A stretch of DNA of 64,000 nt from Methylobacter sp. (GTDB lineage: Bacteria > Pseudomonadota > Gammaproteobacteria > Methylococcales > Methylomonadaceae): positions 1 to 64,000 of the forward strand of contig JAPLRU010000117.1 in NCBI GenBank assembly GCA_026399025.1, given 5' to 3'. Of this stretch, positions 4,528 to 60,816 are shown piece after piece. The position numbers and the translations under genes were made by a program. How positions within the stretch are numbered: position 1 is the first letter of the stretch; the number at the start of each line of letters is the position of its first letter. Below the pieces are notes generated by a model. It was not told the DNA's origin. It did not search any database and saw nothing but the letters and a program-made list of their open reading frames with translations.

Positions 4528-4580
4528 CACCACGAAGGCACGAAGTTTTATTGCTTCGTGTCCTTCGTGCCTTCGTGGTG
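4528..4580. repeat. Inverted repeat element, CACGAAG family (copy 1)
   Basis: Perfect 18-bp arms (4528-4545 and 4563-4580), each built from CACGAAG/CTTCGTG units, flanking a 17-base centre containing TTTTATTGC. A second member with the same core and the same downstream GAATAAAAG lies at 45.5 kb. It fills most of the 303-base gap between gnd and the membrane protein gene; no gene is visible in the rest of that gap. It is a REP/MITE-like dispersed element and could form a hairpin in RNA. Confidence 0.85.
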
Positions 4581-4628
4581 AATAAAAGCTTTTTAAGCCG
4601 CAATCCAGGTTTATGATGGATAACGATA

Positions 4629-6030: not shown

Positions 6031-9000
6031 TTGAAAATAAATCTTCTTCCTCGCCTTCAGCGTATGAAAGTATGGCAGTTGCGGCTGTTCTCAGTCATTC
6101 TGTCGGTAGTGATGACCGAGGCTGTCGTCGCCGTCATGGGGCTATTGCTAAAAGGAGAGGTGTCGCCCGATTATCTGCTTACCGGCTTGGTTGCCTCCTG
6201 TTTGGTCGCCTCTCTGATTGTCGCCATGTTGAGTTATTTTCTTGAACAACTCACTGAAAGCCGGCTGCAACTCCATGCCATTATCGAGGCCGAGCCTGAA
6301 TGCCTGACGCTGATGGACGTCAACGGAACGTTGTTACAAATCAACCATGCCGGACTTAAGATGATAGAAGCGGAGTCGCCGGAGCAAATCATCGGACAGC
6401 AGCTACCGCCATTGGTGCTGCCGGAATATCGAGAGGCGTTCAGGGCGTTAACCGGGCGCGTGTTCGCAGGCGAATCCGGCAATCTGAAGTTCGAAATTTA
6501 CGGACTCAAAGGCGCGCACCGTTGGCTGGATACACATGCGGTGCCGTTGCGCGACGCCCACGGTCATATCACCGCATTGCTCGCGGTGACTCGCGACATT
6601 AGCGAGCATAAAGCATCGGAAACGGCGTTGCAGGAAGCGCTGGATCGTCTCAAGAAAATTGCAGGCCGCTTGCCCGGCTTGATCTTTCAATTTCAGCTAC
6701 GCCCCGACGGCAGTTCCTGCTTTCCTTTCGTCAGCGAGGCTATTCGCGACATTTATCGGGTCAGCCCGGAAGAGGTTCGGGAGGACGCCGCGAAGGTGTT
6801 CGCCACGCTGCATCCCGACGACTATGCCGGCACTGTCGCGTCGATTCAGGCATCGGCACGAAACTTGACGCCTTGGCGTCATGAATATCGGGTGAAGTTT
6901 AAAAACGGCACGGTGCGCTGGCTGTTCGGCAACTCATTGCCGCAACGGGAAGCCGACGGCTCGGTGCTTTGGCACGGCTTTATCACCGATATTACCGAAC
7001 GCAAGCGGGAAACCGCGTCGCTGCTGGAGAGCGAAGCCCGTTTCCGGACCATGGCGGATAGTGCGCCGGTGCTTATCTGGATCGCCCGGCCGGACAAGTT
7101 TTTCCACTATTTCAACAAAGGCTGGCTGGAGTTTACCGGACGGACCATGAAACAGGAAATAGGCAATGGCTGGATTGCCAATATACACCCGGAAGACTTT
7201 CAACGGTGCTTCGCTACCTACGCAAGCTCTTTCGATGCCCGGAAGGAATTCAGCATGGAATATCGTTTGCGCCGCTTCGACGGCGAATACCGCTGGCTGC
7301 TCGATCACGGCGTGCCGCTTTACGACCAGCAAAATAACTTCCTGGGCTATATCGGCTCCTGCATCGATATTACGCCGCGTAAGCTGGTGGAGGCGGATCT
7401 GCGGATCGCGTCCACCGCTTTCGAATCTCAGGAAGCGATGGCGATTACCGATAAAAATAAAATCATTCTGCGGGTTAACCAGGCTTTTGTGCGGGTGACC
7501 GGTTATAGCGTTGAGGAGGCGGTCGGTAAAACGCCTTCCTTGCTCAAATCAGGCCGTCAGGATGACCGCTTCTATCAGGCTATGTGGGAAAGCCTGTGTC
7601 GCGATGGACACTGGCAAGGTGAAATCTGGAATCGGCGCAAGAACGGCGAAATCTATCCGGAATGGCTCAACATCACCGCCGTCACCGATGAGAGCGGTCA
7701 GGTCACCAATTATGTGGCTTCTTTTTCCGATATTACCGCACGTAAAATGGCGGAGCACGAAATTCAGCATTTAGCCTTTTACGATCCCTTGACCCAATTG
7801 CCTAATCGCCGCTTGTTGCAGGAACGCTTAAAGCACGGCATTGAGGTGGAGCGGCGCGAAGGCAAGCACTTGGCCTTGCTGATGCTCGACCTGGATCGTT
7901 TTAAAGCCGTCAACGACAGTCTCGGCCATCAGGCGGGCGATGCGTTATTGCAGCAAGTCGCAGCCAGAATTACCGGTCGTTTACGCGAGGTGGATTTGGT
8001 CGCCCGCTTGGGCGGCGATGAGTTTGTCGTGTTGCTGGAAGATATTGCTCATCCGGATGATGCGGCACGGGTTGCCGAAGACATTATCGCCGACTTGAGC
8101 AAACCCTTCAAACTGGTCCAGAACGACGATGTGCGGATTGGCGCCAGCATCGGTATCAGTTTGTATCCGCAACACGGCGACAGCGCCGAAATGCTGCTGG
8201 ATCACGCCGATGCCGCGTTGTATCACGCCAAAGATCAAGGCCGCGGTTGCTTTGCCTATTTTTCCGAAGATTTGACGCTGGCTGTGCGTGAGCGCATTGC
8301 GTTGGAAGTGCGCCTTAGAAAGGCGATTAAACAGCAGGAACTGCGTGTGTTCTATCAGGCGCAAATCGATATTGCCGGCGACCGCATTGTCGGCGCGGAA
8401 GCTTTAGTGCGCTGGCAAGATCCTATCGAAGGCTTGATTCCGCCCTGCCGTTTTATTCCTATTGCCGAAGAAACCAACTTGATTGCGGAGATAGGCGAAT
8501 GGGTGTTGCGCGAAACCTGTCGGCAAGGTCGGCAATGGCTGGATCAAGGGCTGCCGCCGTTAACGCTGGCGGTTAATGTGTCGCCGCATCAATTCCGGCG
8601 TAGCGATATTAATGCGTTGGTTGCCACGGTACTGCACGAGACCGGCTTTCCGGCGGAGTATCTGGAATTGGAGATAACCGAAAGCGGGCTGATGGAAAAC
8701 CAGAACAAGACCACGCATATTTTGAACAGCCTGCATAAGCAAGGCATCCGTCTGGCCATTGACGATTTCGGTACCGGTTATTCGTCGCTGACCTATCTCA
8801 AACATTTCCCGCTGGATGTGCTGAAAATCGACAAGAGTTTTATCGACGACATTCCACATAATAAAGACGACATGGAAATTGCCGCCACCATTGTCGCGAT
8901 GGGTCATATTTTAGGCTTTAAGGTGTTGGCGGAGGGCGTCGAAACGCTGGAGCAACTGGCTTTTTTGCAAACCCAAAACTGCGATTTATATCAAGGCTAT

Positions 9001-9075
9001 CTTAAAAGCCGTCCGCTACCGGCCGATGCTTTTATCGAGCTGCTTCAGGCGGACGGCTTAGATCGCGAAAGATAA
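6031..9075 (+). CDS. PAS-PAS-PAS-PAS-GGDEF-EAL cyclic-di-GMP enzyme
   Basis: A 1014-residue membrane sensor for cyclic-di-GMP turnover. Two N-terminal membrane helices lie at about 15-40 and 48-70, followed by four PAS/PAC domains (about 75-200, 205-325, 330-450 and 455-575). The GGDEF domain has GGDEF near 661-665 with an intact inhibitory RxxD site five residues before it. The EAL domain has EAL near 790, NVSPHQF, ELEITES, DDFGTGYSS and EGVET. Both catalytic domains keep their key residues, so both cyclase and phosphodiesterase activity are possible. The frame opens with TTG at 6031; an ATG at 6064 (MKVWQL) is an equally good start, and neither has a clear ribosome site. It is monocistronic. 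Confidence 0.93.
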   Translation: MKINLLPRLQRMKVWQLRLFSVILSVVMTEAVVAVMGLLLKGEVSPDYLLTGLVASCLVASLIVAMLSYFLEQLTESRLQLHAIIEAEPECLTLMDVNGTLLQINHAGLKMIEAESPEQIIGQQLPPLVLPEYREAFRALTGRVFAGESGNLKFEIYGLKGAHRWLDTHAVPLRDAHGHITALLAVTRDISEHKASETALQEALDRLKKIAGRLPGLIFQFQLRPDGSSCFPFVSEAIRDIYRVSPEEVREDAAKVFATLHPDDYAGTVASIQASARNLTPWRHEYRVKFKNGTVRWLFGNSLPQREADGSVLWHGFITDITERKRETASLLESEARFRTMADSAPVLIWIARPDKFFHYFNKGWLEFTGRTMKQEIGNGWIANIHPEDFQRCFATYASSFDARKEFSMEYRLRRFDGEYRWLLDHGVPLYDQQNNFLGYIGSCIDITPRKLVEADLRIASTAFESQEAMAITDKNKIILRVNQAFVRVTGYSVEEAVGKTPSLLKSGRQDDRFYQAMWESLCRDGHWQGEIWNRRKNGEIYPEWLNITAVTDESGQVTNYVASFSDITARKMAEHEIQHLAFYDPLTQLPNRRLLQERLKHGIEVERREGKHLALLMLDLDRFKAVNDSLGHQAGDALLQQVAARITGRLREVDLVARLGGDEFVVLLEDIAHPDDAARVAEDIIADLSKPFKLVQNDDVRIGASIGISLYPQHGDSAEMLLDHADAALYHAKDQGRGCFAYFSEDLTLAVRERIALEVRLRKAIKQQELRVFYQAQIDIAGDRIVGAEALVRWQDPIEGLIPPCRFIPIAEETNLIAEIGEWVLRETCRQGRQWLDQGLPPLTLAVNVSPHQFRRSDINALVATVLHETGFPAEYLELEITESGLMENQNKTTHILNSLHKQGIRLAIDDFGTGYSSLTYLKHFPLDVLKIDKSFIDDIPHNKDDMEIAATIVAMGHILGFKVLAEGVETLEQLAFLQTQNCDLYQGYLKSRPLPADAFIELLQADGLDRER

Positions 9076-9335
9076 TTCGGCCGATTTTACCGGCACGCGA
9101 CTAAGCCCTCTGTACTGCCGATTTTTTGAAGGCTTGAGCACAACATTGGCAGGATTGCCGACAAATTGTTCGAAAAAGCACCAAGCCTTGTCTTTCAAGA
9201 TCGTTAATTACCTTAATATTCAATATATTAACCGTAGTAATTGCGTGGCATTTTAATTGCTAGTTGAAAGCCGGGTAACCAACATCGGTTCGATGTTGTA
9301 CTTGACGTTTTTTCAAACACTAGCGAGGTATTGAT

Positions 9336-9638
9336 ATGTTCGAAGTTATTCTGTTGCTCTTTGTGATGCTTTTAATTGCCGCATGCGCTTTTTTTCCATT
9401 GGGTTGCCGTATGCTGTTCTCTCCCGAATCGTCTCAACGATCCGACATCGACGGCTCGGATTCAGAACCGAGCGTCTCTGAGGACGCGGCACTAAAACAG
9501 AGTTTTCTGTCCCATTTGCAAAATGAAATCGAATCCACTCTTTTTCCACGCCCTACCGACTCTATTTTGCAGCGCCATTACGATACTTTGGTCAACGCCG
9601 AACTGGAGAATCGCCTGGCGGCAATGCCGGATTCATAA
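9336..9638 (+). CDS. Small single-span membrane protein
   Basis: A 100-residue protein with one strongly hydrophobic N-terminal helix (residues 3-24, VILLLFVMLLIAACAFF), then a Ser/Asp/Glu-rich soluble region with a likely amphipathic helix (LKQSFLSHLQNEIEST). GCGAGG precedes the ATG at usual spacing, which supports translation. No family is recognised. The 259 bases before it show no gene. A long palindrome follows directly. Confidence 0.6.
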   Translation: MFEVILLLFVMLLIAACAFFPLGCRMLFSPESSQRSDIDGSDSEPSVSEDAALKQSFLSHLQNEIESTLFPRPTDSILQRHYDTLVNAELENRLAAMPDS

Positions 9639-9644
9639 TTAAGA

Positions 9645-9715
9645 AGCTCGGTAGCATGATGGGAGAAGCGGTGTGCAAACTACGCGGTCATCATCTCCAG
9701 TCATCCTACCGAGCT
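9645..9715. repeat. 71-base stem-loop element
   Basis: Ten-base perfect outer arms (AGCTCGGTAG at 9645-9654, CTACCGAGCT at 9706-9715) with a nested GGAGA/TCTCC pair inside. It sits between the converging small membrane gene and yejF. There is no T-run, so it is not a classic terminator. It is more likely a REP-like element, or a bidirectional transcription block or RNA stabiliser. Confidence 0.6.
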
Positions 9716-9766
9716 GCTGACACCTGAGATTTATGGGCGGTTTAGCGTTGCGAGACCGCCCTCGTT

Positions 9767-11430
9767 CTACACCGTCAATCGCGGCACCGCCGCCAGCAAT
9801 TCCTGAGTATAAGGATGTTGCGGTCGTGTACAAACCTGCGCGGTTTCGCCTTGTTCCACAATCTTGCCTTTGTACATCACCACCGTCCGGTCGCTTAAAT
9901 ATTCCACGACCCCGATATTATGGGTAATGAACAACAAGGTCAGGTTACGTTGCTGACGAATGCTCAGCAGCAATTGCAAAATTTCCGCCTGCACCGACAC
10001 ATCTAATGCGCTGGTAATTTCATCGCAGACAATAAATTTTCATCGCAGACAATAAATTCAGGGTTCAATGTCAACGCGCGCGCCAGACCGATACGCTGAC
10101 GCTGTCCGCCGGAAAACTCATGCGGATAGCGCCACAAAAAATCGCGTTTGAGCTGTACGCTTTCCAAAAGCCGACCCGCGAGTTCGATACGTTCTTCTTG
10201 ATTTGCGCCTATGCCGTGAACTTTCATCGGTTCGGTTAGCGTTGTTTCGATCAACAGGCGCGGATTCAGCGACGATTGCGGGTCTTGAAAAGCAATCTGC
10301 ATCTTCCGCCGCAACGGCCGCAATTCGCGGGCGGAAAGCCCGGTCAGTTCTTGGCCTTGAATCCGAATGCTGCCGGATGTTGGTTTTTCCAATTGCACGA
10401 CCGCGCGGCCTAAGGTGGTTTTGCCGCAGCCGGACTCGCCGACCAAGGCTACGATCTGGCCTTGCGGAATATCCAGTGTCACTTCGTCTACCGCGCGGAC
10501 ATAGCCGACAGTGTGGCGAAACAAGCCTTTTTTGATCGGAAACCACACTTTCAAATCACGGATTTGCAGTAGCGGGGTTTGAGCTGTGCTTTGTTTTTCT
10601 GTTGCCTGTTGAGCCTGCACCGATACCGGTTTAGCCAAATTCTCCGGCAGCGCGGCCAATAACTGCCGGGTATACGAATGCTGCGGCTTACGCAACACTT
10701 CGGCGCAAGAGCCGACTTCAACCATCTTGCCCTGCTGCATCACGCCAACCCACTGCGCCATCCGCGCCACGACGCCGAAATCGTGGGTAATAAACAACAT
10801 GCTCATGCCGGTGTCGTCCTGCAATTTGCGCATCAATCGTAAAATCTCGGCCTGCACGGTTACATCCAACGCAGTAGTCGGCTCGTCGGCAATCAGCAAT
10901 TGGGGCTCGCAAGCCAAAGCCATCGCTATCATCACCCGCTGCCGCTGACCGCCTGACAATTGGTGCGGGTAATCGCGGAAGCGGCCGGAAGCATGCGGTA
11001 TCTGCACCTGCTCCAAGGCCATGATGCTGCGCTGTTCGGCCTCGGCATCGCTCATCGCCGGATGGTGCAGTTGCAATGCTTCGGTGATTTGTTCGCCGAT
11101 GGTCAATACCGGGTTTAATGAGGTCATCGGCTCCTGGAAAATCATCGCGATTTGCGCACCGCGAACCGCTCTTATCCCCGGATCGTCCAGTTTTAATAAA
11201 TCGTGGCCGTTGAACAGTATTTCCCCGCTCGGATGCGAGGCTATGCCATCCGGCAATAAACGGATCACCGAGAGCGCGGTCACCGATTTACCGCTGCCGG
11301 ATTCGCCGACCAGACAAAAAATTTCGCCTTTGGGGATATTGAAACTGATGCCGTCGACAGCCTTTACTTCGCGGCTGTCCGCCTGCAAGTAAGTGCTTAG
11401 ATTGCGAACTTCCAACAACCGGTCGCTCAT
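9767..11430 (-). pseudogene. yejF: yejF, peptide ABC transporter dual ATPase, disrupted
   Basis: This would be the energising subunit of the YejABEF oligopeptide (microcin C-type) importer, with two ATPase domains in one chain. The first domain is intact ([26 protein letters not shown]). The second has GESGCGKTT and FSGGQRQRIG, but at Walker B the frame reads FIVCDE then NLLSAMKLPAH and stops at 10003. The rest of the domain (DVSVQAEIL…, beginning in the 9767-10000 frame) continues in another frame. The cause is a 20-bp tandem duplication; removing 20 bases restores a 547-residue protein, close to the normal length. The start ATG at 11430 overlaps the yejE stop (ATGA). The 475-residue product lacks part of its second ATPase domain and may be inactive. 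Confidence 0.92.
10018..10058. repeat. 20-bp tandem duplication inside yejF
   Basis: A 21-base word (TTTCATCGCAGACAATAAATT with one shared base) occurs at 10018-10038 and 10038-10058, a period of exactly 20. Since 20 is not a multiple of three it shifts the yejF frame at the Walker B Asp-Glu. Both copies are identical, so the event is recent or an assembly fault. Confidence 0.95.
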
Positions 11431-50200: not shown

Positions 50201-50910
50201 CCAACATCTCCATGGCGGCCATTCACGTTTTGATGGGGCTGAAAACGCGGGTGGTACTACCGCCGCCGTTTTTATGCTGCGGGTTTCCGGCCTATGCCAA
50301 CGGACAGGCCGAAATGCATTCGCAAAACGGTTTGCGCGTGACCATCCTGCTCAATCAAATCCGCGATATGTTTACCCATCTGGATTTTGACGGCTGCGTA
50401 CTGACTTGCGGAACCTGCCGCGAAGGCTTGAACGAGATGGAAGCGGCCAAGCTGTTCGGCGGCAGGTTGGTTGATATCACCAAGTACGCACTGGAGCGGG
50501 ACCTGCATCTGGCCGGCACCGGCAGCGAAACTTATCTGTATCACGCCCCTTGCCATGATTCTTTAGACGGCAAAGCGCTGGAGGTGCTTGATGAATTAGG
50601 CGGATTCGGTAACGTTACCACCGTGCCTAATTGTTGCTCCGAGGCGGGAACCTTATCGCTGTCGCGGCCCGACATTTCCGCCGCGATGCTGCATCGCAAA
50701 CGCGAATCGCTGGCCGAAGTGATGCCGGAAAAGGGCCGCGCCACCATTCTGACCAACTGCCCGTCCTGTATGCAGGGCTTGGGCCGGAACAAAAGCATGG
50801 GCGTCGATCCGCAGCATTTGGCCGTGGCATTGGCTGAGAAATTGTCCGGGAAAGCCTGGTTGAAGCGGTTTAAAGTGCAGGCGGCTAAGGCTAAGGCGTT
50901 TAATTTTTGA
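47236..50910 (+). CDS. Large FAD-linked oxidoreductase with Fe-S and CCG domains
   Basis: 1224-residue fusion flavoprotein of the 'DUF3683' FAD/FMN-oxidoreductase type. It has an N-terminal DUF3683-like region (about 1-170), an FAD_binding_4 domain (PRGGGTGLTGGAVP, DPTSAWASSIGGNIAENAGG), and a lactate/glycolate-oxidase-like C-domain (THMHAGDGNVHVNLPV, GVVSGEHGIGVTKL). Two 4Fe-4S sites follow (CVRCGKCKPDC and CTTCHKCAKPCP), then two CCG repeats (PGCGSERMVS…LCCGFPAYANG, CGTCREG, HAPCHDS…CCSEAG). It probably oxidises a 2-hydroxy acid and passes electrons to quinone; the substrate is unknown. Confidence 0.92.
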   Translation: MSPTTLRTEASSTISIPRGYREIPFNYTSADDWQVVSFLLGSEIALILEELRDRRVTGRSARLLMRFFGEILIYRRNPYLFQELVSSADRRKRMFDNAEKHLSIIEQNIGDEARVHKVLVASRQLLKDFRKDVESVPGLRRRMKRELGAVTGVSNVLFDPFTLVSHATDATDWRLYLPVAVIMPDKEEQIAPLLIAIAKMGLKALPRGGGTGLTGGAVPLRPDCVVINTEKLDHIRGLRDMEFKLWDGQTAVAQVLEVEVGVITEKAHQYASSRGLVFATDPTSAWASSIGGNIAENAGGKCAVRWGTCIDNLISWRMAMPGGKRWEVRRTDHQLRKILPEDDVTFEVSDQKSGESIKTIVLKGSEIRKKGLWKDITNKALGGVPGLQKEGTDGLITSAEFILYPKFEATRTICLEFFGQDMEEASRVIVELSKAFPFPDQGEDTLVALEHFDDEYVRAIDYQVKSSRFKTPKAVLLIDIAGHSLEQTQRGIDKIRAILDQYPNSELFEAHDAHEAERYWADRKKFGAIARRTNAFKLNEDVVIPLETLAEFARFIDEVNLQEELYAQMKFLDRAATLFRQPPDEGNTDSFKARSSFAQYLYTTAKNSLPLADEKTLRSLSIINDFRQEFAELARGFPKIIAAVDLAYQEVRDRRIVLATHMHAGDGNVHVNLPVLSNDRDMMERSGEVIDTVMFKVIELGGVVSGEHGIGVTKLKYLEPERIAALSAYRREVDPTGLMNPGKLEDFDVLEHIFTPSFNLLGLEARILRHGQLEELANKIAHCVRCGKCKPDCGVFHPAGSLFYHPRNKNLAIGAIIEALLFDAQREYSTKFELLQWLEDVADHCTTCHKCAKPCPVDIDSADVSVLERRILADWGYKHMPPATKMTLRYLHSESPAFNKVFRFGVLRAGFVGQQLGTLLAKPLQPKKGQSKHYPLQLLSSPMPTVPSLTLRDLLPDCKEDQVLVFEPDQEAERTVFYFPGCGSERMVSNISMAAIHVLMGLKTRVVLPPPFLCCGFPAYANGQAEMHSQNGLRVTILLNQIRDMFTHLDFDGCVLTCGTCREGLNEMEAAKLFGGRLVDITKYALERDLHLAGTGSETYLYHAPCHDSLDGKALEVLDELGGFGNVTTVPNCCSEAGTLSLSRPDISAAMLHRKRESLAEVMPEKGRATILTNCPSCMQGLGRNKSMGVDPQHLAVALAEKLSGKAWLKRFKVQAAKAKAFNF

Positions 50911-51127
50911 TGGGGATTAGGAGATAGGTTGTAGTGGCTCCGCAAACACAATAAAGGTAGGCGAGGCTTTGCTACTTTCATGAGCCGAAATGTTGGGTAT
51001 AACAAAGATCCCGGCATTTCGGCATTCTGTTGGAGGCGATCCAAAAGCTGTCGCTATATCCGAAATATTCAGTAACGTCTCATTAATCACAGGCGATGAT
51101 CTTAGAGCATGTTTTAAAAGCTCATAG

Positions 51128-51460
51128 CTACATTATCCTCAGACAAGACAATTCGGGGTCTTGCTCAAACGCCATGATAACGGCGGCTTTGTTTCTCAAG
51201 AGCAGCTGAATTTGCCGATTTGAGCAGTTGCCGCGCCGAATCCAAATAACCTTTGGCGGCTGCCCATACAGTGCGCTTTTATCGTAGAAATCAGAATCCT
51301 TGCTTGCCAAAATGAAGCCCTGAGCTTTGGCATATTCCCAAACGTCGCTGTCTGGCACGCTACCCAGTCCCACGCGGTCTACATGCGCGGAATCCGGGAA
51401 AACATCAGCCAAAGCGGCAACCAGCTTAGGAGATAGGTTTTCGTCAAATAGCAACCTCAC
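51128..51460 (-). CDS. DUF5615 PIN-like protein (putative toxin)
   Basis: 110 residues starting at a GTG that overlaps the upstream stop by four bases (GTGA). The N-terminus MRLLFDENLSPKLVAAL and ASKDSDFYDKS are marks of the DUF5615 PIN-like family, with acidic residues in place for metal-dependent RNase activity. It pairs with the DUF433 gene just upstream, a common toxin-antitoxin-like pair. Confidence 0.88.
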   Translation of the reverse strand: MRLLFDENLSPKLVAALADVFPDSAHVDRVGLGSVPDSDVWEYAKAQGFILASKDSDFYDKSALYGQPPKVIWIRRGNCSNRQIQLLLRNKAAVIMAFEQDPELSCLRIM

Positions 51461-51687
51461 GAACTAATAACCAGCGAATGTTTTTCACGGTCGGCGGCAT
51501 AGGCAAAACAGGCTCTAATGTCGTCTTGAGTCAGATAATCAAAGTCTTCAAGTATTTCTTGCTCGGTCATGCCTGAAGCAAAGTATTCGAGAATGTCATA
51601 AACGGTAATCCGTAAGCCGCGAATACAAGGCTTGCCGCTACGTTTGCCGGGTTCTATGGTGATGATGCTGTGATAGTCGATAGTCAT
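51457..51687 (-). CDS. DUF433 protein (putative antitoxin)
   Basis: 76 residues from the ATG at 51687 (MTIDYHSIITIEPGKRSGKPCIRGLRITVYDIL). This is a typical DUF433 winged-helix protein, and ASGMTEQEILEDFDYLTQDDIRACFAYAADRE completes it. It probably binds the PIN-like partner and its own promoter. Confidence 0.88.
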   Translation of the reverse strand: MTIDYHSIITIEPGKRSGKPCIRGLRITVYDILEYFASGMTEQEILEDFDYLTQDDIRACFAYAADREKHSLVISS

Positions 51688-51796
51688 GATCTTACTCACT
51701 GGGTAGTGATACCGTGTGCAATTGTACGGGCCCAAAAAAGCCGCGAAGTTCGCAGCTTGTATGGGATGTTGAGACGGGGTGATACGGCTTGAGAGA

Positions 51797-52663
51797 TTAC
51801 TCTATATTTTGCACCTGCTCACGCATCTGCTCAATCAGCACCTTAAGCTCAATAGCTATCCGGGTCATTTCTTTATCGGTCGACTTAGATCCCAAGGTAT
51901 TGGCTTCCCGGTTCAGCTCCTGCATTAAGAAATCCAGCCGTCTGCCGACCGGGTCTTTTTGTTTGAGTACCCGCAACACTTCATTAATATGGGTTTCCAG
52001 CCGATCAAGCTCTTCGCTGACATCTAGTTTTTGCGCCAGCAACACCAATTCCTGCTCCAGACGGTCAAAATCGGGCTGGACGACCAGTTCGGTAATGCGG
52101 TCTTTGAGTTTATTGCGGATTAACAGCAGGACTTCCGGCAGTCGCTTACCCGCTAAGGCGGCAAAACTCAACATTTTTTCGCAGCGATCTTCAATTAAAA
52201 GCTTAAGTTGAGCGCCTTCTCTTTCCCGCGCTTCCAGCAGCTGGAGCAGTGATTGATTAACCAAGGTTGCGATGCTTAAATTAAGTTGCTCTTTGTCGAT
52301 ATCCGGCTCTTGTTGGATACCGGGAAATGCCAGCACATCCAGCGCCGAAAAGGACAAGGGGCCGAGCATTTGCCGTTCTATGCCGGCGGCTGCGGCAAGC
52401 AGTGTCGCTACGGCATCGGTATTAATGGTGAAATTTTGCCCGTTTTTAGCCTGTTTTTTATAGCTCAGTGAGCATTCGACTTTGCCCCGATTGATTTTGG
52501 CGGCGATGGCTGAACGCAAGTCGGCCTCGGCAAAACGCAGACGATCCGGCAACCTCAAGCTAATGTCGCAGTAACGATGATTGACTGAGCGCAACTCGCA
52601 GCTGATGGTTAAGTCGCCTATTTCTGTTTCATTACCGGCAAACGCGGTCATGCTTCTAATCAT
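51797..52663 (-). CDS. yicC: YicC family protein
   Basis: 288 residues, YicC-like N- and C-terminal (DUF1732) domains: MIRSMTAFAGNETEIGDLTISCELRSVNHRYCDISLRLPDRLR and GRRLDFLMQELNREANTLGSKSTD. YicC has been linked to stress and RNA decay (endoribonuclease). AGGTG precedes the ATG. It is divergent from the kinase gene across 46 bases, a common arrangement in Gammaproteobacteria. Confidence 0.95.
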   Translation of the reverse strand: MIRSMTAFAGNETEIGDLTISCELRSVNHRYCDISLRLPDRLRFAEADLRSAIAAKINRGKVECSLSYKKQAKNGQNFTINTDAVATLLAAAAGIERQMLGPLSFSALDVLAFPGIQQEPDIDKEQLNLSIATLVNQSLLQLLEAREREGAQLKLLIEDRCEKMLSFAALAGKRLPEVLLLIRNKLKDRITELVVQPDFDRLEQELVLLAQKLDVSEELDRLETHINEVLRVLKQKDPVGRRLDFLMQELNREANTLGSKSTDKEMTRIAIELKVLIEQMREQVQNIE

Positions 52664-52709
52664 TTTTCACCTATAATGGACGGGCTTATACAGATATATA
52701 ATCAACCCA

Positions 52710-53609
52710 ATGGCTGAATACTACGATCCGCAGACTTACCCGAAAGAGTGGAATTATCTGCAAACAGGCACAATTATAGACCAGTATGTCATTGAGAGGG
52801 AGTTGGCGCACGGCGGCTTCAGTTCGGTTTACCTGGCCAGACAGATAGCGGATCAGATCCAGGTTGCGATTAAAGAGTATTTGCCCCGGAAATTTGCCCA
52901 CCGAACCTGGAACAATGTGGTTGTCGCCAACAGCGAAGAGGCGGCGGCTTTTTTCAAGCGCGGCAGGGTGCTGTTTTTTGAGGAAGCCAAAGTTTTATCG
53001 ACATTAAAGCACCCCAATATTGTCGAGGTGATCGGTTTTTTCAAGGCCAATTCTACCGTTTATATGGTAATGACTTATGACTATGGCCTTACCTTGGATA
53101 AGCTGTTAAACACTAAAACACTGTCTGTTTCCGAAGATTTCTTATTGACCTTATTCAACTCGTTGTTGGCGGGGCTGGGTCATATTCACAGCCAACAATT
53201 CATTCATCTTGACATTAAACCGTCCAACATTTTGGTGCGGCCGGGCAATGACGCGTTATTGCTCGATTTCGGCGCGATTCAGAGCTTCCCCAAATCGCAT
53301 CTGGGCAAGCAAAGTAAGGTGCTGACCAAAGGCTACTCGCCAATAGAACAGCATGATTTAAGCGCTCAACTAGGCCCGTGGACGGACATTTATGCGGTGG
53401 GCGCGAGTATGCGCAATTGTCTGGAGCATAAGATCCCGGTTCCCGCATTGGACAGATTGAAACAGGATACGCTGGTTCCCGCAGTTAAAGCCTTTAAACG
53501 AAAATATCCCGAACATTTGTTAAAAGCCATCGACTGGGCCATGGCGGTGCAGCCGGAAAATCGTCCGCAATCGGTTGCCGAATTGTTAAAGGCGTTGGTC
53601 GGCGCTTGA
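52710..53609 (+). CDS. Serine/threonine protein kinase
   Basis: 299-residue Hanks-type kinase without membrane segments. It has the glycine loop AHGGFSSVYLAR (about 33-44), Lys55 in VAIKEYLP, the catalytic loop HLDIKPSNIL (Asp168), DFG at 186-188 and KGYSPIEQ after it. All catalytic residues are present. In this neighbourhood (yicC … rph) a kinase is often accompanied by a PP2C phosphatase; none is seen here. Its substrate may be encoded by the genes directly downstream, but no evidence beyond position exists. Confidence 0.92.
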   Translation: MAEYYDPQTYPKEWNYLQTGTIIDQYVIERELAHGGFSSVYLARQIADQIQVAIKEYLPRKFAHRTWNNVVVANSEEAAAFFKRGRVLFFEEAKVLSTLKHPNIVEVIGFFKANSTVYMVMTYDYGLTLDKLLNTKTLSVSEDFLLTLFNSLLAGLGHIHSQQFIHLDIKPSNILVRPGNDALLLDFGAIQSFPKSHLGKQSKVLTKGYSPIEQHDLSAQLGPWTDIYAVGASMRNCLEHKIPVPALDRLKQDTLVPAVKAFKRKYPEHLLKAIDWAMAVQPENRPQSVAELLKALVGA

Positions 53610-53870
53610 TTAATCGAAAATCAGGATTTTTCTGTAGTCTACCTCAGCCTACAAGAAAATGGCCAAATAGCCATCGGGGTTAAAGTGTCGGCCGAGCAAA
53701 CGCGTGAACCGGTGCAAAATATAAGGTAACATGGAAATAGACCATAGAAATCGGACAGATAAAATGCCCCGCTTGGAAAAAATCTTAGTGGAAACCGGAT
53801 TCAAGGCTTCCCTGTTTTCAGCGGATTATCTTTAATGGTGAGTCACCTTACAACTTTAAGGAAAAAATTA

Positions 53871-55154
53871 ATGAGTAACACCCTAAAAAAAGCGTCGACA
53901 TTGAAAGAAGCTTACTTTTCATTTGACCCTGTGCGTGATCTAAACACCAAAGAAGAATTGGAAACACTGTATGTTGATCGGAATAGCCATGTCCGCGAAC
54001 AAATCATGTTGTCTTTAGACAGTGACTTGGAACTGGAAAGGCCGGTGCATTTGTTATTTACCGGACACCGGGGCAGCGGTAAATCGACGGAAATCAATAA
54101 ACTATGTGTTGAGCTCGACGATAAATTTTTTATCGTCAAAGTTTCATTCAGTAATCGGCCTGACGTGGATTATGTCGATATGTTATTAAAAGCGGCAATG
54201 ACCTTGTTTAAGACTGCCACCGATGAAGACGTGATTAAAAAAGCCCCCGCGCAAATCGTGCAAGGATTTTGGCAAGACCTTAATCAGTTCATTGAAAACA
54301 AACTGTTCGGCGGCATGATTATCAGCAAGGATTTAAATGCGACAGCCTCTTTGAGCGCTAAAGTGAATTTGTGGGCTGTTGAGTTCGAAGGTAAATTTGA
54401 ATCGGAACCCGCTTCGCGTCAAGAATTTAAAGACAAAGGCGAAAAATTACTCGCGGAAATAATCGACAAGATTAATATGCTGTCTGAGCGGATACGGAAA
54501 AGTTACAACCGCCCGGTATTATTTATTTTTGAGGATGCCGACAAAATCGACCTGAAAAATGCCAAAGAGATCTTTTATCAACACTGCAACACCTTGGTTA
54601 ATATCCGCGCATCGGCGATTTATGTGATCGATATTAGCTTGCGCTACAACCCCGATTTTAATGCGACCAAAGCCAGTTTCTCGGAATTCCTGTGTTTGCC
54701 CAATATCAAATTATTAACCAAAGACAGCCAGCCCGTTCAGGCAAACAGGGACTTATTGGAAAAAATCATTGATTGCCGGGCGGAACCGCAGTTGTTTGCC
54801 GATGATGCCAAGGAATTGTTGATTGACGCCAGCGGCGGTTTAATCCGTACCTTAATCGGTTTGATACAAAGCGCGGCTTCCAGAGCCATTATCGAAAAAA
54901 GCGACAAAATTAATAAAGAGCAGGTTGAGCATGCGATCAACCGGCAAAAAGGCGACTTTATCGCGATGTTGGAAAGCAAGGATTACCCGCTGCTATCCAA
55001 TCTACACAAGGATAAACAACTCACCAGCGATAACGACACCCAAACCTTATTGCAATCCCTAGCCTTATTGGAATATGACAACGGCGAATTATGGTGCGAT
55101 GTGCATCCTATTATTCTGCCTGAAGTGAAAAAACGCGTTTTGCCGGTTTCATAA
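53871..55154 (+). CDS. P-loop ATPase of an ATPase-TPR module
   Basis: 427 residues from the ATG at 53871 (MSNTLKKAST), preceded by AAGGA; an ATG at 53835 lacks one. Walker A GHRGSGKST (about 65-73) and Walker B-like VLFIFEDADKID; the C-terminal part has SGGLIRTLIGLIQSAASRAI, like ORC/AAA+ and STAND ATPases. No specific family is recognised. The next gene starts six bases after its stop, so both act together. It may be a sensor ATPase of an immunity or regulatory module. Confidence 0.85.
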   Translation: MSNTLKKASTLKEAYFSFDPVRDLNTKEELETLYVDRNSHVREQIMLSLDSDLELERPVHLLFTGHRGSGKSTEINKLCVELDDKFFIVKVSFSNRPDVDYVDMLLKAAMTLFKTATDEDVIKKAPAQIVQGFWQDLNQFIENKLFGGMIISKDLNATASLSAKVNLWAVEFEGKFESEPASRQEFKDKGEKLLAEIIDKINMLSERIRKSYNRPVLFIFEDADKIDLKNAKEIFYQHCNTLVNIRASAIYVIDISLRYNPDFNATKASFSEFLCLPNIKLLTKDSQPVQANRDLLEKIIDCRAEPQLFADDAKELLIDASGGLIRTLIGLIQSAASRAIIEKSDKINKEQVEHAINRQKGDFIAMLESKDYPLLSNLHKDKQLTSDNDTQTLLQSLALLEYDNGELWCDVHPIILPEVKKRVLPVS

Positions 55155-55160
55155 TGCCTT

Positions 55161-56696
55161 ATGACCGTTTTCCCGGAAGAAATCGAAAAAGAATACCAAG
55201 AAATGGCGTTTGCCGTGGAACATGCACAACGCGGCTGTTGGCTGTTTGCGGTTTATAATCAAGCCACCGCTAGAGAACAAATCATTGAGCGATTGCAAAC
55301 CGAAACAAAGCTGCCGATTTTTGCTTGGCAATATGATGAGAGCAAGCCTTATCCTGTCGATTATTTACACGACTTAACCGGACAGCAACAACAGCAACGT
55401 GCTGTGGTGATGTTTATCAATACCGCCGATGGCGGCGAAAAAATCATTAAGTCCCTGGATTTTAACCGCGAAAAATTTGCCAGGTATCCGCATAGCTTGA
55501 TTTTTTGGGTGACGGAACGTGAACGCGGCGAAATAGCCAGACAAGCGGGGCATTTTTGGGCGCAACGTCGGGGAACTTTTGATTTTTCAGCCTTAGTATT
55601 AGCCGCGACTACACAAAATAATTCATACGGTAGCGGTAACTGGCTTAATAATTTATTGAATATTGGTAATTACCAGGAAGCCTTGCGGCAACTGGATTTC
55701 TATCGGCAAATATTCAGCGAATACCCACCGGTAGAGCAAGCCTCACCAAACATTCAGCGGCTTATTGCCGAAACGGCCGATAAAATCAGTTACTTATTGT
55801 ATTACCTGGGGCGTTATTCCGAAGCTGTCGATTATTGTCGGCAAGCTTTGAGTCTTTATCGATCATTGTCAGGTGAAAACGATTACTCGGTTCTTGCGGC
55901 CTGCAATAATCTTGCGTTGCTGTATCTTCGCAGTGGACTTTATGCTGAGGCGGAGCCGCTCCTGCAAAAAACCTTGTCGATTTTAGAGCGACGCTCCGAC
56001 TATGTTTCTGCAATGGCGACAGTATTAAACAATTTGGCTGAGCTTTATAGAGCACAAGGCAAGTACCCAAAAGCCGAACCCCTGTACCAAAAAAGTTTGG
56101 CGATAAGGGAGCAAGCATTAGGTAAAAACCATCCTGACGTCGCCGCCAGCTTAAACAATTTAGCGGGGCTTTATTATGTCCAAGGCAATTATGCAAAAGC
56201 CGAACCCTTATACCGTAAAAGCTTGACGATTAGGGAACAAGTGTTAGGGCAAGACCATCCCGAAGTTGCCAGCAGCTTAAACAATTTAGCGTTGCTTTAT
56301 GGTGCGCAAGGCAAGTACGCACAAGCAGAACCCTTGTACCAAAAAAGTTTAGCTATTTGGGAAAAATCATTAGGCGCAGAACACACCGAAGTTGCCAGCA
56401 GCTTAAACAATTTAGCGTTACTTTATGGTGCGCAAGGCAAGTACGCAAAAGCCGAGTCTTTGTGCCAAAAAAGTTTAGCTATTAAGGAAAAAGCATTAGG
56501 CGCAGACCACCCTAAAGTTGCTACCAGCTTAAATAATTTGGCAGCGCTTTATTCTGTCCAAGATAAATACGCACAAGCCGAACCCCTGTATCAAAGAAGC
56601 CTAGCTATTTTGGAAAAGACATTAGGCGCGAACCACCCGGACACAAAACAAGGCAAAGCGAATTATGAGCAACTACTGGCAAAAAAAGCCATGTAA
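55161..56696 (+). CDS. TPR protein with STAND-like N-terminal region
   Basis: 511 residues. The N-terminal part (1-165) lacks a visible P-loop, but DFNREKFARYPHSLIFWVTERERGEIARQAGHFWAQRRGTFDF matches a pattern found in STAND-type NTPases just after Walker B. A middle helical region (about 170-285) has irregular TPRs. Five 42-residue kinesin-light-chain-type TPR units (286-495) follow, each like ASSLNNLALLYGAQGKYA-QAEPLYQKSLAI-EK-LG-H-V. It forms a tight operon with the ATPase, a layout like split innate-immune sensors (ATPase separate from the repeat sensor). Function is inferred only. Confidence 0.85.
   Translation: MTVFPEEIEKEYQEMAFAVEHAQRGCWLFAVYNQATAREQIIERLQTETKLPIFAWQYDESKPYPVDYLHDLTGQQQQQRAVVMFINTADGGEKIIKSLDFNREKFARYPHSLIFWVTERERGEIARQAGHFWAQRRGTFDFSALVLAATTQNNSYGSGNWLNNLLNIGNYQEALRQLDFYRQIFSEYPPVEQASPNIQRLIAETADKISYLLYYLGRYSEAVDYCRQALSLYRSLSGENDYSVLAACNNLALLYLRSGLYAEAEPLLQKTLSILERRSDYVSAMATVLNNLAELYRAQGKYPKAEPLYQKSLAIREQALGKNHPDVAASLNNLAGLYYVQGNYAKAEPLYRKSLTIREQVLGQDHPEVASSLNNLALLYGAQGKYAQAEPLYQKSLAIWEKSLGAEHTEVASSLNNLALLYGAQGKYAKAESLCQKSLAIKEKALGADHPKVATSLNNLAALYSVQDKYAQAEPLYQRSLAILEKTLGANHPDTKQGKANYEQLLAKKAM
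56016..56645 (+). repeat. Five 126-bp TPR-coding repeats
   Basis: Five units of 126 bases, each coding a 42-residue TPR. Units 3 and 4 are nearly identical at DNA level (AGCAGCTTAAACAATTTAGC and following), suggesting recent duplication or conversion. Confidence 0.85.
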
Positions 56697-56832
56697 GACA
56701 CATGTTGCGATACAGTCAATTAACATCCCCCGCGTTTCATTCTCTTCGATAGTGCCGAATAGTAGCAATTGAACCGCCGGACAACGAGCCGTTCAGGTAT
56801 ACTGTGCGGTTTTTCATTTTAGCGGAACAACT

Positions 56833-57555
56833 ATGAGACCAAGCGGACGTAACCCGGATCAACTAAGAGACATCAAATTTACCTGCGGTTTTACCAAACA
56901 TGCAGAGGGCTCTGTTCTGGTTGAATTCGGCGATACCCGAGTGCTGTGTACCGCCAGTGTCGACCGGAGTGTCCCGCGCTTTCTTAAAGGCAAGGGCGAA
57001 GGCTGGATTACCGCCGAATACGGCATGTTGCCGCGTTCGACCCATACCCGGATGGGACGCGAAGCCAGTAACGGCAAACAGGGCGGACGAACCCTTGAAA
57101 TTCAGCGTTTGATTGGCCGTTCGCTACGCGCGGCGGTTGATTTAAAAGCCTTGGGCGAGCATACCATCACCATCGATTGCGATGTGTTGCAGGCGGATGG
57201 CGGAACCCGTACCGCGTCGATTACCGGCGGCTTTGTCGCGCTGTCGCTGGCCGTGCAAAAAATGCTCAAACGCAAGCAAATCAAGACTAATCCGCTGCAC
57301 GGACAGATTGCTTCGGTTTCTGTCGGTATTTATAACGGTGTGCCGGTGCTGGATCTGGATTATGCCGAAGATAGCAACGCCGAAACCGATATGAATGTGG
57401 TGATGAACGATGCCGCGGCGTTTATTGAGGTGCAAGGTACGGCCGAGGGGCATGCGTTCAGGAAAGATGAGATGGACGCGATGCTGGAACTGGCCAGTTC
57501 AGGCATTAAAGACTTATTGGAAAAACAACGGCTGGCAATAGAAGAGCATAAATGA
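56833..57555 (+). CDS. rph: Ribonuclease PH
   Basis: 240 residues; phosphate-dependent 3' trimming of t[46 protein letters not shown] at the start, [19 protein letters not shown] and [19 protein letters not shown] follow. Length and motifs are full. Its stop overlaps the rdgB start by four bases. Confidence 0.98.
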
Positions 57556-58163
57556 GTTTTGCAACATATCAACAAGTTGTCCTGGCCAGCGGCAATCCCG
57601 GTAAGATCAGGGAAATTCAGGCAATACTGGCCGACCATCCCATCGTTCCGCAGTCCGCGTTTAATGTTGCCGACGCTGAAGAAACCGGTACGACGTTTGT
57701 GGAAAACGCGATTTTAAAAGCCCGGAATGCGGCATTGCATTGCAAATTGCCGGCGATAGCTGACGACTCTGGACTGGTTGTGGATGCGTTGAACGGCGCG
57801 CCGGGCGTGATTTCCGCCCGCTATGCCGGAGTCGGCGCCGGCGACCGGGATAATCTGGACAAGTTGTTGCGGGAGCTTGAAGGCGTTCCGGATGAACTGC
57901 GCACGGCCCGGTTTATCTGTGTGATGGTGTTTATGGAACACGCGAACGATCCTTGTCCGGTTATCGCTCAAGGCGTTTGGGAAGGCAGGATTTTGGATCA
58001 TGCCGTCGGGGAAAACGGTTTCGGTTATGACCCGGTATTTTGGGTGCCGGAGCAGGGTTGCGCCTCGGCGCAATTACCGGCTGCGCTTAAAAATGCGTTG
58101 AGTCACCGCGGACAAGCGTTAAAGCGTCTGAGCGCATTAATTAAGGCCAGAAAAAACGGCTGA
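57552..58163 (+). CDS. rdgB: XTP/dITP diphosphatase (RdgB/HAM1)
   Basis: 203 residues; removes non-canonical purine nucleotides. [68 protein letters not shown] and [11 protein letters not shown] are family marks. It is translationally coupled to rph (ATGA). Confidence 0.98.
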
Positions 58164-58287
58164 TGTTCGGCAAAAAATAAAGCCGGCTGCACCGGTTTAC
58201 ATAGTCGTCTACTTGGGATTTAGCGGAAATTAGCCGTCTTAAAATTTTCGGACGAGGTCATTTGCCCGACTGGCGTATTTCTCGGCA

Positions 58288-58863
58288 TCAAACCGTTACC
58301 ATAAACGACCAGTCTATGCTCAGCTCCGGGAACCGTTGCACGACGGTAGGCTCATCCATGCCGAAGACGCCGGGCTGTCCGTAGCGTCCCTGCGCATCCA
58401 GTGTATAAATCAAGGTCCAGCGATCTTCCGGATGGATAATCCAATATTCCTGCACACCATGCCGCTGGTAAAGGCCGCGTTTGGTGTTCATGTCTTTGAG
58501 CGCGGTGGAAGGTGAAAGCACCTCAATAATCCAATCTGGTGCGCCGCGGCACCCTTGTTTGTCCAATTTGGACGGGTCGCAAATGACGCTCAGATCGGGC
58601 TGCACTACCGTTTCCACTTTCGCATCGGCTTCATCTTGGCGCGGTAAGCGCACGTCGAAGGGGGCGACATAAACTTCACAAGGCTTGCCTTGCAAGTAGT
58701 TACCGACTTGCCTGCTCAATTCGGACACTATTTTCTGATGCAAGCGTTGCGGAGCGGTCATCGCATACGGCACACCGTCAATCAGCTCCCAGCGCTCATC
58801 TTCAGGCCATTGGGCATAATCGGCATAAGTGTATTTTTGTTGCAATTGTTCTGCGGTATTCAT
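58288..58863 (-). CDS. Uma2 family endonuclease (copy 1)
   Basis: 191 residues from the ATG at 58863 (MNTAEQLQQKYTYADYAQWPEDERWEL), supported by GGAG. Uma2 (DUF820) proteins have a PD-(D/E)XK fold; here PDLSVICDPSKLDKQGCRGAPDWIIEVLSP and TALKDMNTKRGLYQRHGVQEYWII give the D…E-x-(K) region. The frame to 58899 is only a run-through. It is a tandem copy of the next gene, differing mostly at scattered positions. Confidence 0.92.
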   Translation of the reverse strand: MNTAEQLQQKYTYADYAQWPEDERWELIDGVPYAMTAPQRLHQKIVSELSRQVGNYLQGKPCEVYVAPFDVRLPRQDEADAKVETVVQPDLSVICDPSKLDKQGCRGAPDWIIEVLSPSTALKDMNTKRGLYQRHGVQEYWIIHPEDRWTLIYTLDAQGRYGQPGVFGMDEPTVVQRFPELSIDWSFMVTV

Positions 58864-58895
58864 CGTTTTGTCTCCAAAGTGAGAAATTTTAAGCA

Positions 58896-59471
58896 TCAAA
58901 CGGCCGCCATAAACGACCAGTCTATGCTCAGTTCCGGGAACCGCTGCACCACTGTAGGCTCATCCATGCCGAAGACGCCGGGCTGCCCGTAGCGGCCCTG
59001 CGTATCCAGCGTATAAACCAAGATCCAGCGGTCTTCCGGATGGATAATCCAGTATTCCTGCACGCCATGCCGTTGGTAAAGGCTGCGTTTGCTGTCCATG
59101 TCTTTGAGCGCGGTGGAAGGTGAAAGCACTTCCACAATCCAATCCGGCGCACCGCGGCAACCTTGCTTGTCCAGCTTGGACGGGTCGCAAATGATGCTCA
59201 GATCGGGCTGCACCACGGTTTCCACCTTCGCATCGGCTTCATCTTGGCGCGGCAAGCGCACGTCGAAGGGGGCGGTATAACCTTTACAGGGCTTGCCTTG
59301 CAGGTAGTTGCGGACTTGTCCGCCCAATTCGAACACAATATCCTGATGCAAGCGCTGCGGCGCGGTCATCGCATAGGGTACGCCGTCAATCAGTTCCCAG
59401 CGTTCATCTTCAGGCCATTGGGCATAATCGGCATAGCTGTATTTTTGTTGCAAGTGCTCTGCGGTATTCAT
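58896..59471 (-). CDS. Uma2 family endonuclease (copy 2)
   Basis: 191 residues, MNTAEHLQQKYSYADYAQ…, very similar to copy 1 over the full length; the ribosome site (GGAG) and short leader are also duplicated. The stop lies 32 bases before the copy 1 start. Both copies keep the PD-(D/E)XK residues, so both may be active. Confidence 0.92.
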   Translation of the reverse strand: MNTAEHLQQKYSYADYAQWPEDERWELIDGVPYAMTAPQRLHQDIVFELGGQVRNYLQGKPCKGYTAPFDVRLPRQDEADAKVETVVQPDLSIICDPSKLDKQGCRGAPDWIVEVLSPSTALKDMDSKRSLYQRHGVQEYWIIHPEDRWILVYTLDTQGRYGQPGVFGMDEPTVVQRFPELSIDWSFMAAV

Positions 59472-59502
59472 CGTTTGCTCTCCGAAGTGAAAAAATTCTG
59501 AT

Positions 59503-60816
59503 CTAACCCGCTAACCGCTCCCGCCATTCGGCGATTTTCAGCTTCAACTCGTCAATATTAACCGTCGTCAGGTGACGTTGATTTAACAGGCGTTTACCCG
59601 CGACCCAGACATCGGTGACTTGCTGACGGCCGGCCGCGTAAACAATCTGCGAAACCGGGCAATATAACGGCTGGGTTTCCAACGGCGATAAATCAACAGC
59701 AATCACGTCGGCGGCTTTGCCGATGCTTAACGAGCCGGTTTCATGCTCCAAACCCAAGGCCTTGGCGCCGTTAATGGTCGCCATGCGCAACGCGGTCATG
59801 GCCGGAACGGCGCTGGCGTCACCGGCAACGGCTTTGCCGAGCAGCGCCGCGGTGCGCATTTCGCCGAACATATCCAAGTCATTGTTGCTGGCCGCGCCGT
59901 CGGTGCCCAAAGCCACGTTAATACCCGCGGCAAGACATTTGGCAACCGGGCAAAAACCGCTGGCCAATTTTAAATTGGATTCGGGACAATGCACGATATG
60001 CGCGCCGGATTCGGCAAACAGGGCGATTTCGTCATCGCTTAATTGGGTCATGTGGACCGCGATGAACGACGGATCGATTAAGCCGAGTTCATGTAATCTT
60101 TGCAAGGGCCGCTGTCCGGTTTTTTGCTGTTCCTGCTCGACTTCGTGCAGCGTTTCGTGGACATGCATATGGATCGGCAGTTCCAATTCATCGGCAAAAG
60201 TTTTAATTTTTTGCAACGGTGGGTTCGATACCGTATACGGCGCATGAGGTGCAAACGGCGTGGAAATTAATGGGTGGTGCCGCAGTTGCTCATGCAAGGC
60301 TAAGCCTTTTTCAATATAGGCGTCGCTGTTTTCGGCCCAGACGGTCGGGAAATCGATCACAATCAAGCCGACACTGGCGCGGATGCCGTGATGTATCGCT
60401 TGCGCTGCGGTAATTTCCGGAAAAAAATACATGTCGTTAAAACAAGTCGTTCCGCCTAAAATCATTTCCGCTATCGCCAAATCGCTGCCGTCTTTGACAA
60501 ACGCTTCGCTCATCCATTTTTGTTCCAGCGGCCAGATATGGTTTTGCAACCAATCCATCAAATGCAAGTCGTCGGCAATGCCGCGCATTAAAGTCATTGC
60601 GGCATGGGTGTGGCTGTTGATCAAACCGGGCAGCAGCGCGTGGTCGTCCAGGTTTTCTGTGGTCGTACCCTGATATTTTTGCCGGGCAAGTTCGCTAGGC
60701 AGTAAATCGATAATCCTGCCCCCGTCGATAACCAGCGAGTGCTGTTCCAAGGTTACGGATTCCGGTTCAACGGGTATAATCCAGCGGGCGTGAATCAGGG
60801 TATCGACGATTATCAT
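59503..60816 (-). CDS. mtaD: 5'-methylthioadenosine/adenosine-type deaminase (TRZ/ATZ family)
   Basis: 437-residue amidohydrolase that can deaminate 5'-methylthioadenosine and S-adenosylhomocysteine. Metal motifs are INSHTHAAMTLMRG, HMHVHE, FIAVHMTQL and ALGTDGAASNNDLDMF. It is divergent from mtnA across about 140 bases. In Pseudomonas a related deaminase lies beside mtnA and starts a methylthioinosine route of methionine salvage; the same seems likely here. Confidence 0.88.
   Translation of the reverse strand: MIIVDTLIHARWIIPVEPESVTLEQHSLVIDGGRIIDLLPSELARQKYQGTTTENLDDHALLPGLINSHTHAAMTLMRGIADDLHLMDWLQNHIWPLEQKWMSEAFVKDGSDLAIAEMILGGTTCFNDMYFFPEITAAQAIHHGIRASVGLIVIDFPTVWAENSDAYIEKGLALHEQLRHHPLISTPFAPHAPYTVSNPPLQKIKTFADELELPIHMHVHETLHEVEQEQQKTGQRPLQRLHELGLIDPSFIAVHMTQLSDDEIALFAESGAHIVHCPESNLKLASGFCPVAKCLAAGINVALGTDGAASNNDLDMFGEMRTAALLGKAVAGDASAVPAMTALRMATINGAKALGLEHETGSLSIGKAADVIAVDLSPLETQPLYCPVSQIVYAAGRQQVTDVWVAGKRLLNQRHLTTVNIDELKLKIAEWRERLAG

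Follow-up and report, generated by a model that had tools for sequence, protein, structure and literature searches.

An ATPase–TPR gene pair from Methylobacter: a recurrent two-gene family possibly akin to STAND-type conflict systems

The nearest described system to the gene pair reported here is the two-gene nSTAND2 operon, which splits two STAND nucleoside triphosphatases (NTPases), one active and one inactive, between two chains (Kaur et al. 2021, PMC8195603); an arginine finger is conserved in both, and the inactive one most commonly carries GT4 or HEPN effectors. Our pair, a P-loop ATPase gene followed by a gene for a TPR protein, lies in a 64,000-nucleotide stretch of a Methylobacter sp. 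assembly (GCA_026399025.1, contig JAPLRU010000117.1, positions 1 to 64,000; hereafter the window), whose host is likely a methanotroph because its genome holds two AMO/PmoA-family genes above the Pfam cut-off. What it shares with nSTAND2 is mobility and a two-gene operon layout, one chain being an active NTPase and the other a partner of variable parts that lacks nucleotide-binding motifs. The difference lies in the partner, whose N-terminal domain (N-domain) is not an established NTPase and is joined to TPR repeats or to nSTAND1-WD40; neither an NTPase nor a GT4 or HEPN family was among those listed for the window partner and eight others, and on this side the comparison fails.

The MoxR-vWA ternary systems (VMAP/iSTAND; PMC7159879, in the sections concerned with them) share with our family an NTP-dependent switch and a separate sensor, and one relative from Nostoc C057 carries a fusion in that very gene order. 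The window pair differs in its surroundings, as no MoxR, vWA or VMAP gene was seen near it within positions 50500-60000 (seven proteins scanned against Pfam, the rest judged by eye). STAND sensors of the nSTAND1-WD40 type resemble the cyanobacterial partners, in which a single chain combines an N-domain and helical repeats with nSTAND1 and WD40, whereas the window partner consists of N-domain and TPR only and its NTPase is a separate protein. KAP ATPases occur in the STAND position according to the part of Kaur et al. 2021 (PMC8195603) that also mentions Npun2340/2341 (MNS) as a STAND family; the Nostoc C057 ATPase passes the Pfam KAP_NTPase cut-off (34.4 vs 20 bits), whereas the window ATPase stays under it (15.9 bits). 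Single-chain Avs/bNACHT sensors, as far as the relevant part of PMC10907252 describes them, likewise unite a P-loop NTPase with a repeat sensor, but the window family uses two chains, has no N-terminal effector that we could find and lies within its phylum mostly among housekeeping genes. Finally, the iSTAND protein BrxB of BREX, in the corresponding section of PMC12839542, is a small, fast-evolving, Walker-less putative sensor within an ATP-dependent defence; in contrast, no BREX gene was recognised by eye in the listed stretch of the window. We did not find the pair described in a literature search that left the supplementary gene lists of Kaur et al. outside its scope.

A two-gene family of adjacent and congruent members

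The ATPase and its partner constitute an obligate, adjacent and congruent two-gene family in the genomes searched. In the window, the ATPase gene (53871-55154, + strand; 427 residues from its probable start) ends six bases ahead of the gene for the 511-residue TPR protein (55161-56696, + strand; Pfam TPR_12, 5.5e-101), a spacing that is likewise 6 bp in one close relative (L028) and 4 bp in another (L027). We built profiles of the ATPase (A7, 17 rows) and of the N-domain (A8, 18 rows) from cyanobacterial plasmid and gammaproteobacterial loci. In the former, the ATPase is followed by a large protein, in most cases with WD40 repeats, whose N-terminus is like that of the TPR protein; in the latter it is likewise followed by a protein with an N-domain-like N-terminus. 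Among 398 genomes of the phylum, the window's own included, A7 matched ten and A8 matched eight, all of them within those ten, in searches that scored only the first few candidates per genome, so that a miss is no proof of absence. The two genes were adjacent in 8 of 8 cases, although in one of them a contig end leaves only a C-terminal fragment of the ATPase; the other two ATPases are truncated by contig ends. The gammaproteobacterial search matched 10 of 369 genomes, with G369 and G403 dropped because neither profile matches their loci.

Adjacency also holds across the collected loci. ATPases were present in 32 of 34 loci scanned, and 30 of the 32 have an N-domain gene adjoining on the 3′ side and the same strand, the exceptions being a fused ATPase (L012) and a contig that ends inside the gene (L097). 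This count is not independent, since 17 of the 32 ATPases built profile A7, and it includes as pairs one locus with a frame break in the partner (L086) and one with an in-frame ATPase stop (L026). The trees of ATPase and partner from 25 pairs correlate at r = 0.79, a value that none of 5000 permutations reached (maximum 0.42), and those of 19 less redundant pairs at r = 0.75, again with 0 of 5000 permutations as high; truncated ATPases (L028, L095) and broken or partial pairs (L084, L086, L025) were left out. The layout put forward in the initial annotation, with an ATPase in one chain and a repeat sensor in another, is thus borne out as a recurrent, obligate and co-inherited pair, and the search of other genomes that it had proposed did find the pair.

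Distribution is scattered. In a set of 61 genomes, again with the window's own, the ATPase matched three, namely the window genome, G013 (at three places) and G060, and the N-domain matched the window genome only. Three or four diverged or partial copies of the pair occur in each of G013 (L003, L005, L006) and G233 (L014, L022, L024, L025). Two N-domain searches of plasmids returned 0 and 1 record.

Three close relatives, found in a scan of species genomes, are metagenome-assembled genomes (MAGs) labelled Methylovulum or Methylobacter tundripaludum, and all three have the ATPase followed by the TPR protein. Over the aligned part, ATPase homologues in Methylovulum and Methylobacter MAGs are 76-84% identical to that of the window. 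The ATPase reading frame is also open from an ATG at 53835; the start is probably 53871, because the Methylovulum homologues begin there, and two homologues with a complete 5′ end start at the equivalent position. In L028 the 5′ end of the ATPase gene is missing, while the L026 ATPase (3969-5240) has an in-frame stop near codon 396, its sister copy in L027 being intact. Signalling genes, named by eye, precede the pair on the same strand in both Methylovulum loci. Each locus has a hybrid histidine kinase, accompanied by a STAS gene in L026 and, in L027, by a response-regulator/phosphatase gene that L026 lacks.

Domains of the ATPase and of its partner

The ATPase carries the Walker A motif GHRGSGKST that had been noted before (54063-54089, + strand). 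Across 17 members of the family, the glycines, the lysine and the final threonine of this motif do not vary. A strand reading FIFEDAD (54522-54542, + strand) aligns with VVIVDNLD and similar segments of family members and has the acidic end of a Walker B-like strand; the ATPase has the Walker A and acidic Walker B on a P-loop domain that characterise STAND NTPases. The segment SGGLIR (54831-54848, + strand) represents a conserved GGxxR, with two invariant glycines and an arginine at least 90% conserved across the 17 sequences, and is presumably a sensor-2-like part of the helical lid. The C-terminal region holds a conserved W and P. Pfam returned weak matches to AAA_7, ATPase_2 and AAA_16, all below the gathering cut-offs, while other family ATPases match NACHT (6 of 17) and nSTAND5 (7 of 17) at E up to 0.01. 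PADLOC models gave weak matches throughout (mad8 in 11 of 17, PDC-S20 in 3 of 17), and a PDB sequence search with the ATPase profile found mainly generic P-loop proteins among the best 60 of 212 matches.

The partner is predicted to form a confident TPR solenoid from about residue 171, whose best Foldseek matches are to the TPR of kinesin light chain, a peptide binder. Pfam names such as SNAP, MIT, ANAPC5 and plant viral coat inside the repeats were dismissed as repeat cross-matches. As the initial annotation had stated, the protein appears to have no P-loop: none of the 25 listed Pfam matches, out of 26, belongs to a P-loop family.

Upstream of the repeats lies the P-loop-less N-domain of about 160 residues (55161-55640, + strand) that defines the family. 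Judged by profile comparison, it is a real and conserved domain: the window group aligns with 15 distant partners at 99.0% hhalign probability (E 5.8e-18), compared with 1.7% for the best of 60 column shuffles and 0.2% for the reversed profile. The domain has no Pfam family, with no match beyond noise in 18 members, and a PDB sequence search returned one chance-level chain only; in the full-length model it lies mostly below a pLDDT (predicted local distance difference test) of 60. Its pattern opens with a run like LN..RE, continues with a P and a hydrophobic strand whose last residue is W, and closes with a block of the DFW.WR type; TPR/STAND proteins show such a pattern.

We considered whether the N-domain might be a dead copy of the ATPase. 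Against the ATPase profile it reached 7.6% probability (E 0.0046, score 27.3) out of register, and 12.5% (E 0.0023) once the window group was removed; the score beats the best of 150 column shuffles (18.3) but lies near the reversed control (E 0.011, score 24.7), and we rejected the candidate. Nor did an iSTAND identity find profile support, in a comparison that covered the Pfam families and the ATPase profile. The initial annotation had likened the N-terminus to the sequence found after Walker B in STAND proteins. Profile searches do not bear out this Walker-B argument, with nothing in Pfam and an ATPase-profile match near its reversed control. In the three cyanobacterial partners scanned, moreover, the N-domain lies some 300-400 or more residues upstream of a true nSTAND1 NTPase. 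Because of this position in the same chain, and because the control comes near the match score, we do not call it a dead NTPase; it would rather be a docking or adaptor domain of unproven fold.

On cyanobacterial plasmids, conflict-type domains are joined to family members. On the Calothrix NIES-4101 locus (L010), the second family ATPase carries TIR_2 (1.5e-33), and the gene after it encodes two N-domains and the start of nSTAND1. The partners of Nostoc UHCC 0302 (L007) and Acaryochloris Moss Beach (L009) continue into nSTAND1 and WD40 (8.6e-35 in L007, 8.3e-32 in L009). In Nostoc C057 (L012, 592-5762), a protein with the annotation SAV_2336 N-terminal-domain-related ends in the ATPase, and its gene is the third, following a VMAP-C gene (1.1e-33) and a MoxR-annotated one; no vWA Pfam match was returned for the fused protein, its vWA position resting on gene order, and no N-domain match was found at the locus. 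HicAB, NACHT, TIR or NNH3-type genes lie near three copies (L008, L009, L007), among them a CHAT-TIR gene in the neighbourhood of the Moss Beach pair and, ahead of the UHCC 0302 pair, an NNH3-pentapeptide gene.

As a separate observation, the L010 ATPases are tandem paralogues (6288-8378 and 8531-11203), the second being the one fused to TIR, and the N-domain protein follows them.

The insertion site and the neighbouring kinase

The gene upstream of the ATPase encodes a core Ser/Thr protein kinase (52710-53609, + strand; Pfam Pkinase, 2.3e-33), and the three genes, all on the + strand, lie where the initial annotation had placed them. The kinase is an old core gene and a neighbour, not a component of the module. 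It is present in 37 of 41 genomes, the window's own included, and is 87-93% identical in 21 of 22 same-genus genomes (81% in the remaining one). Fifteen of the 22 same-genus loci have the kinase followed by rph some 80-340 bp on, and five have other genes in between (copper-oxidase-like, peptidase-like, argS-, Lon- and DHFR-like, named by eye), in either case with no pair; two (L036, L050) end at contig ends. No kinase relative was found near 31 other family loci (tblastn, E ≤ 1e-3), some of the stretches being short and the upstream side of L028 lying out of view.

Given that kinase and rph occur in the same genus without the pair, the pair was most likely inserted between them. Kinase and ATPase are separated by a gap of more than 220 bp (counted from the start at 53871) in which local alignment and blastn revealed a second, degenerate copy of the 3′ end of yicC in inverted orientation (53638-53729, listed on the + strand). 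Over 63 bases this copy shares about 75% identity with the yicC of the window itself; it is also matched by blastn against the yicC of relatives and is probably the scar of this insertion. The guanine-cytosine (GC) content is 43-46% across the pair vs 47-56% in neighbouring windows, and the inserted stretch has no other open reading frame (ORF) of at least 80 residues, except frames antisense to the ATPase and TPR genes.

Several candidate identities for the kinase and its site were rejected. PADLOC returned mad6 for the kinase (2.9e-44) and mad8 for the ATPase (5.1e-5), which would suggest the MADS system; the mad6 match spans 266 of 659 positions, and the NCBIfam MAD6 model scores 101.5 bits vs a cut-off of 460, well short of a full score. 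PD-T4-6 is a lone defensive Ser/Thr kinase of patchy distribution, and its models do match the kinase domain (best 1.3e-37), but a gene present in 37 of 41 genomes is core. These PADLOC matches are generic kinase and AAA matches. The kinase-rph gap is likewise no defence hotspot, given the 15 loci with rph next, five with other genes and two contig ends.

Elsewhere in the window, a gene pair of DUF433 and DUF5615 (PIN-like) adjoins yicC at 51128-51735, which we take to be of the toxin-antitoxin type. Two tandem, closely similar ORFs lie on the − strand near rdgB (58288-59471), the first of the Uma2 family (putative restriction endonuclease) and the second assigned by similarity.

What the pair may do

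We give about an even chance to the reading that ATPase and TPR protein form a two-chain, NTP-dependent switch that resembles STAND-type conflict systems and keeps its repeat sensor on a chain of its own. The ATPase, with its P-loop, GGxxR and C-terminal W/P region, would be the motor or oligomerising part, to which the partner would dock through its 160-residue N-domain. The TPR solenoid—in cyanobacteria WD40 with an added nSTAND1—would recognise a protein or peptide ligand, whose binding might alter the contact between N-domain and ATPase and so bring about nucleotide exchange, assembly and output. The setting could be a conflict with invaders or stress, because relatives carry TIR on the ATPase, nSTAND1-WD40 on the partner, or a place in a VMAP/MoxR-type operon. 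We infer the physical complex, docking, ligand sensing, assembly and defence outcome, and consider a defence role plausible. Between sister Methylovulum copies, nonsynonymous divergence (dN) is 0.092 in the TPR part, 0.019 in the N-domain and 0.011 in the ATPase, some 5-8 times higher in the TPR part (in a comparison where the L027 partner ends after 355 residues), a faster drift such as a sensor might show.

Several observations weigh against this reading. Pfam found no effector domain in the window pair, nor in eight other partners of the phylum. Congruent trees are also what simple co-inheritance of linked genes would produce. The ATPase falls under every Pfam cut-off, and its AlphaFold model (pLDDT 34) is unusable. 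At larger distance, dN in N-domain and TPR part is similar (0.18 and 0.25 with L028, 0.23 and 0.24 with L027), the ratio of nonsynonymous to synonymous divergence (dN/dS) is below 1 throughout, and repeat turnover could explain the drift. Viral contigs yielded no relative, and phage records held nothing that matched the ATPase. The phylum copies lie mostly among housekeeping genes and not in defence islands: their flanks include SmpB/FolB, lipoyl ligase/radical-SAM, DXP synthase/DEAD helicase, dehydrogenase/DsbD-like and fumarase genes, among others. Among 20 flanking genes scanned from 14 phylum loci, a single one, for a PIN protein, resembled toxin or defence genes, and two others matched nothing in Pfam. 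Even among the plasmids, the ATCC 53789 copy (L011) has only metabolic or regulatory neighbours and none of defence type. The link to defence islands envisaged at the outset accordingly fails in the window's phylum and holds in part, on some cyanobacterial plasmids; the STAND link, similarly, stands by fusion, through nSTAND1 on cyanobacterial partners, and not by the Walker-B argument.

An unlikely though not negligible alternative is that the pair serves regulation or signalling in normal physiology, transducing stress together with, for example, partner-switching or two-component proteins, and has no defence role. Such a module would suit the signalling genes that precede the pair in L026 and L027, a further locus (L094, 5817-11042) where the pair separates the response-regulator gene of a two-component system from its histidine-kinase gene, and the housekeeping neighbours elsewhere. 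Signalling neighbours were, however, noticed only in Methylovulum and L094; as most other neighbours scanned are metabolic and unrelated, the proximity looks like chance insertion, and the patchy distribution and the cyanobacterial conflict-domain fusions also speak against it. We hold it quite unlikely that the two proteins are instead a chaperone-like pair, an AAA-type ATPase with a TPR adaptor that remodels client complexes without sensing invaders, even though the solenoid is nearest to kinesin light chain and the ATPase matches AAA families. Sporadic presence argues against a general chaperone, and the TIR and nSTAND1 fusions indicate a switch. The chaperone and conflict readings overlap to some extent, because chaperone ATPases have been proposed as thresholds in conflict systems, in the pertinent part of Kaur et al. 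2020 (PMC7159879).

That the pair is a passively mobile cassette, under no selection for a function in its present hosts, would accord with its single copy, the empty site in same-genus relatives, the low GC and the scattered insertion sites. We regard this as very unlikely, given that both window frames are intact, that dN/dS between the Methylovulum copies is well below 1 and that three related MAGs keep the pair, albeit one with an ATPase stop; the want of further ORFs in the inserted stretch, antisense frames aside, also counts against it. The three-part system suggested in the initial annotation, with the kinase controlling ATPase and TPR protein, has in its favour adjacency on one strand and best PADLOC matches to mad6 and mad8, both generic domain matches. 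It is largely refuted and, in our view, extremely improbable: the kinase is conserved without the pair in 22 same-genus genomes, with rph next in 15 of them, none of its relatives was found in the stretches, some of them short, around the 31 other loci, and the yicC scar lies between kinase and ATPase.

Returning to the two-chain switch, a bolder form of it, to which we assign somewhat less than an even chance, is that of an unnamed, scattered family of NLR-like switches. The N-domain would be a new docking domain, outputs (TIR, vWA position) would be fused to the NTPase half, recognisers (TPR, WD40, a second STAND NTPase) would be joined to the sensor half, and the phylum copies would be a minimal immune module outside islands. 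In short, the pair may represent a kind of switch, as yet without a name, by which bacteria defend themselves or respond to stress. Its N-domain is in any case a new family marker without a Pfam model that can be searched for directly. If the reading is true, the pair is a testable candidate outside defence islands, one that island-based searches would miss because the phylum copies lie elsewhere, and a clean system for asking how a repeat sensor gates an NTPase. NLR-type immunity would then have a modular two-chain form, with switch and sensor as separate genes and the output swapped by fusion.

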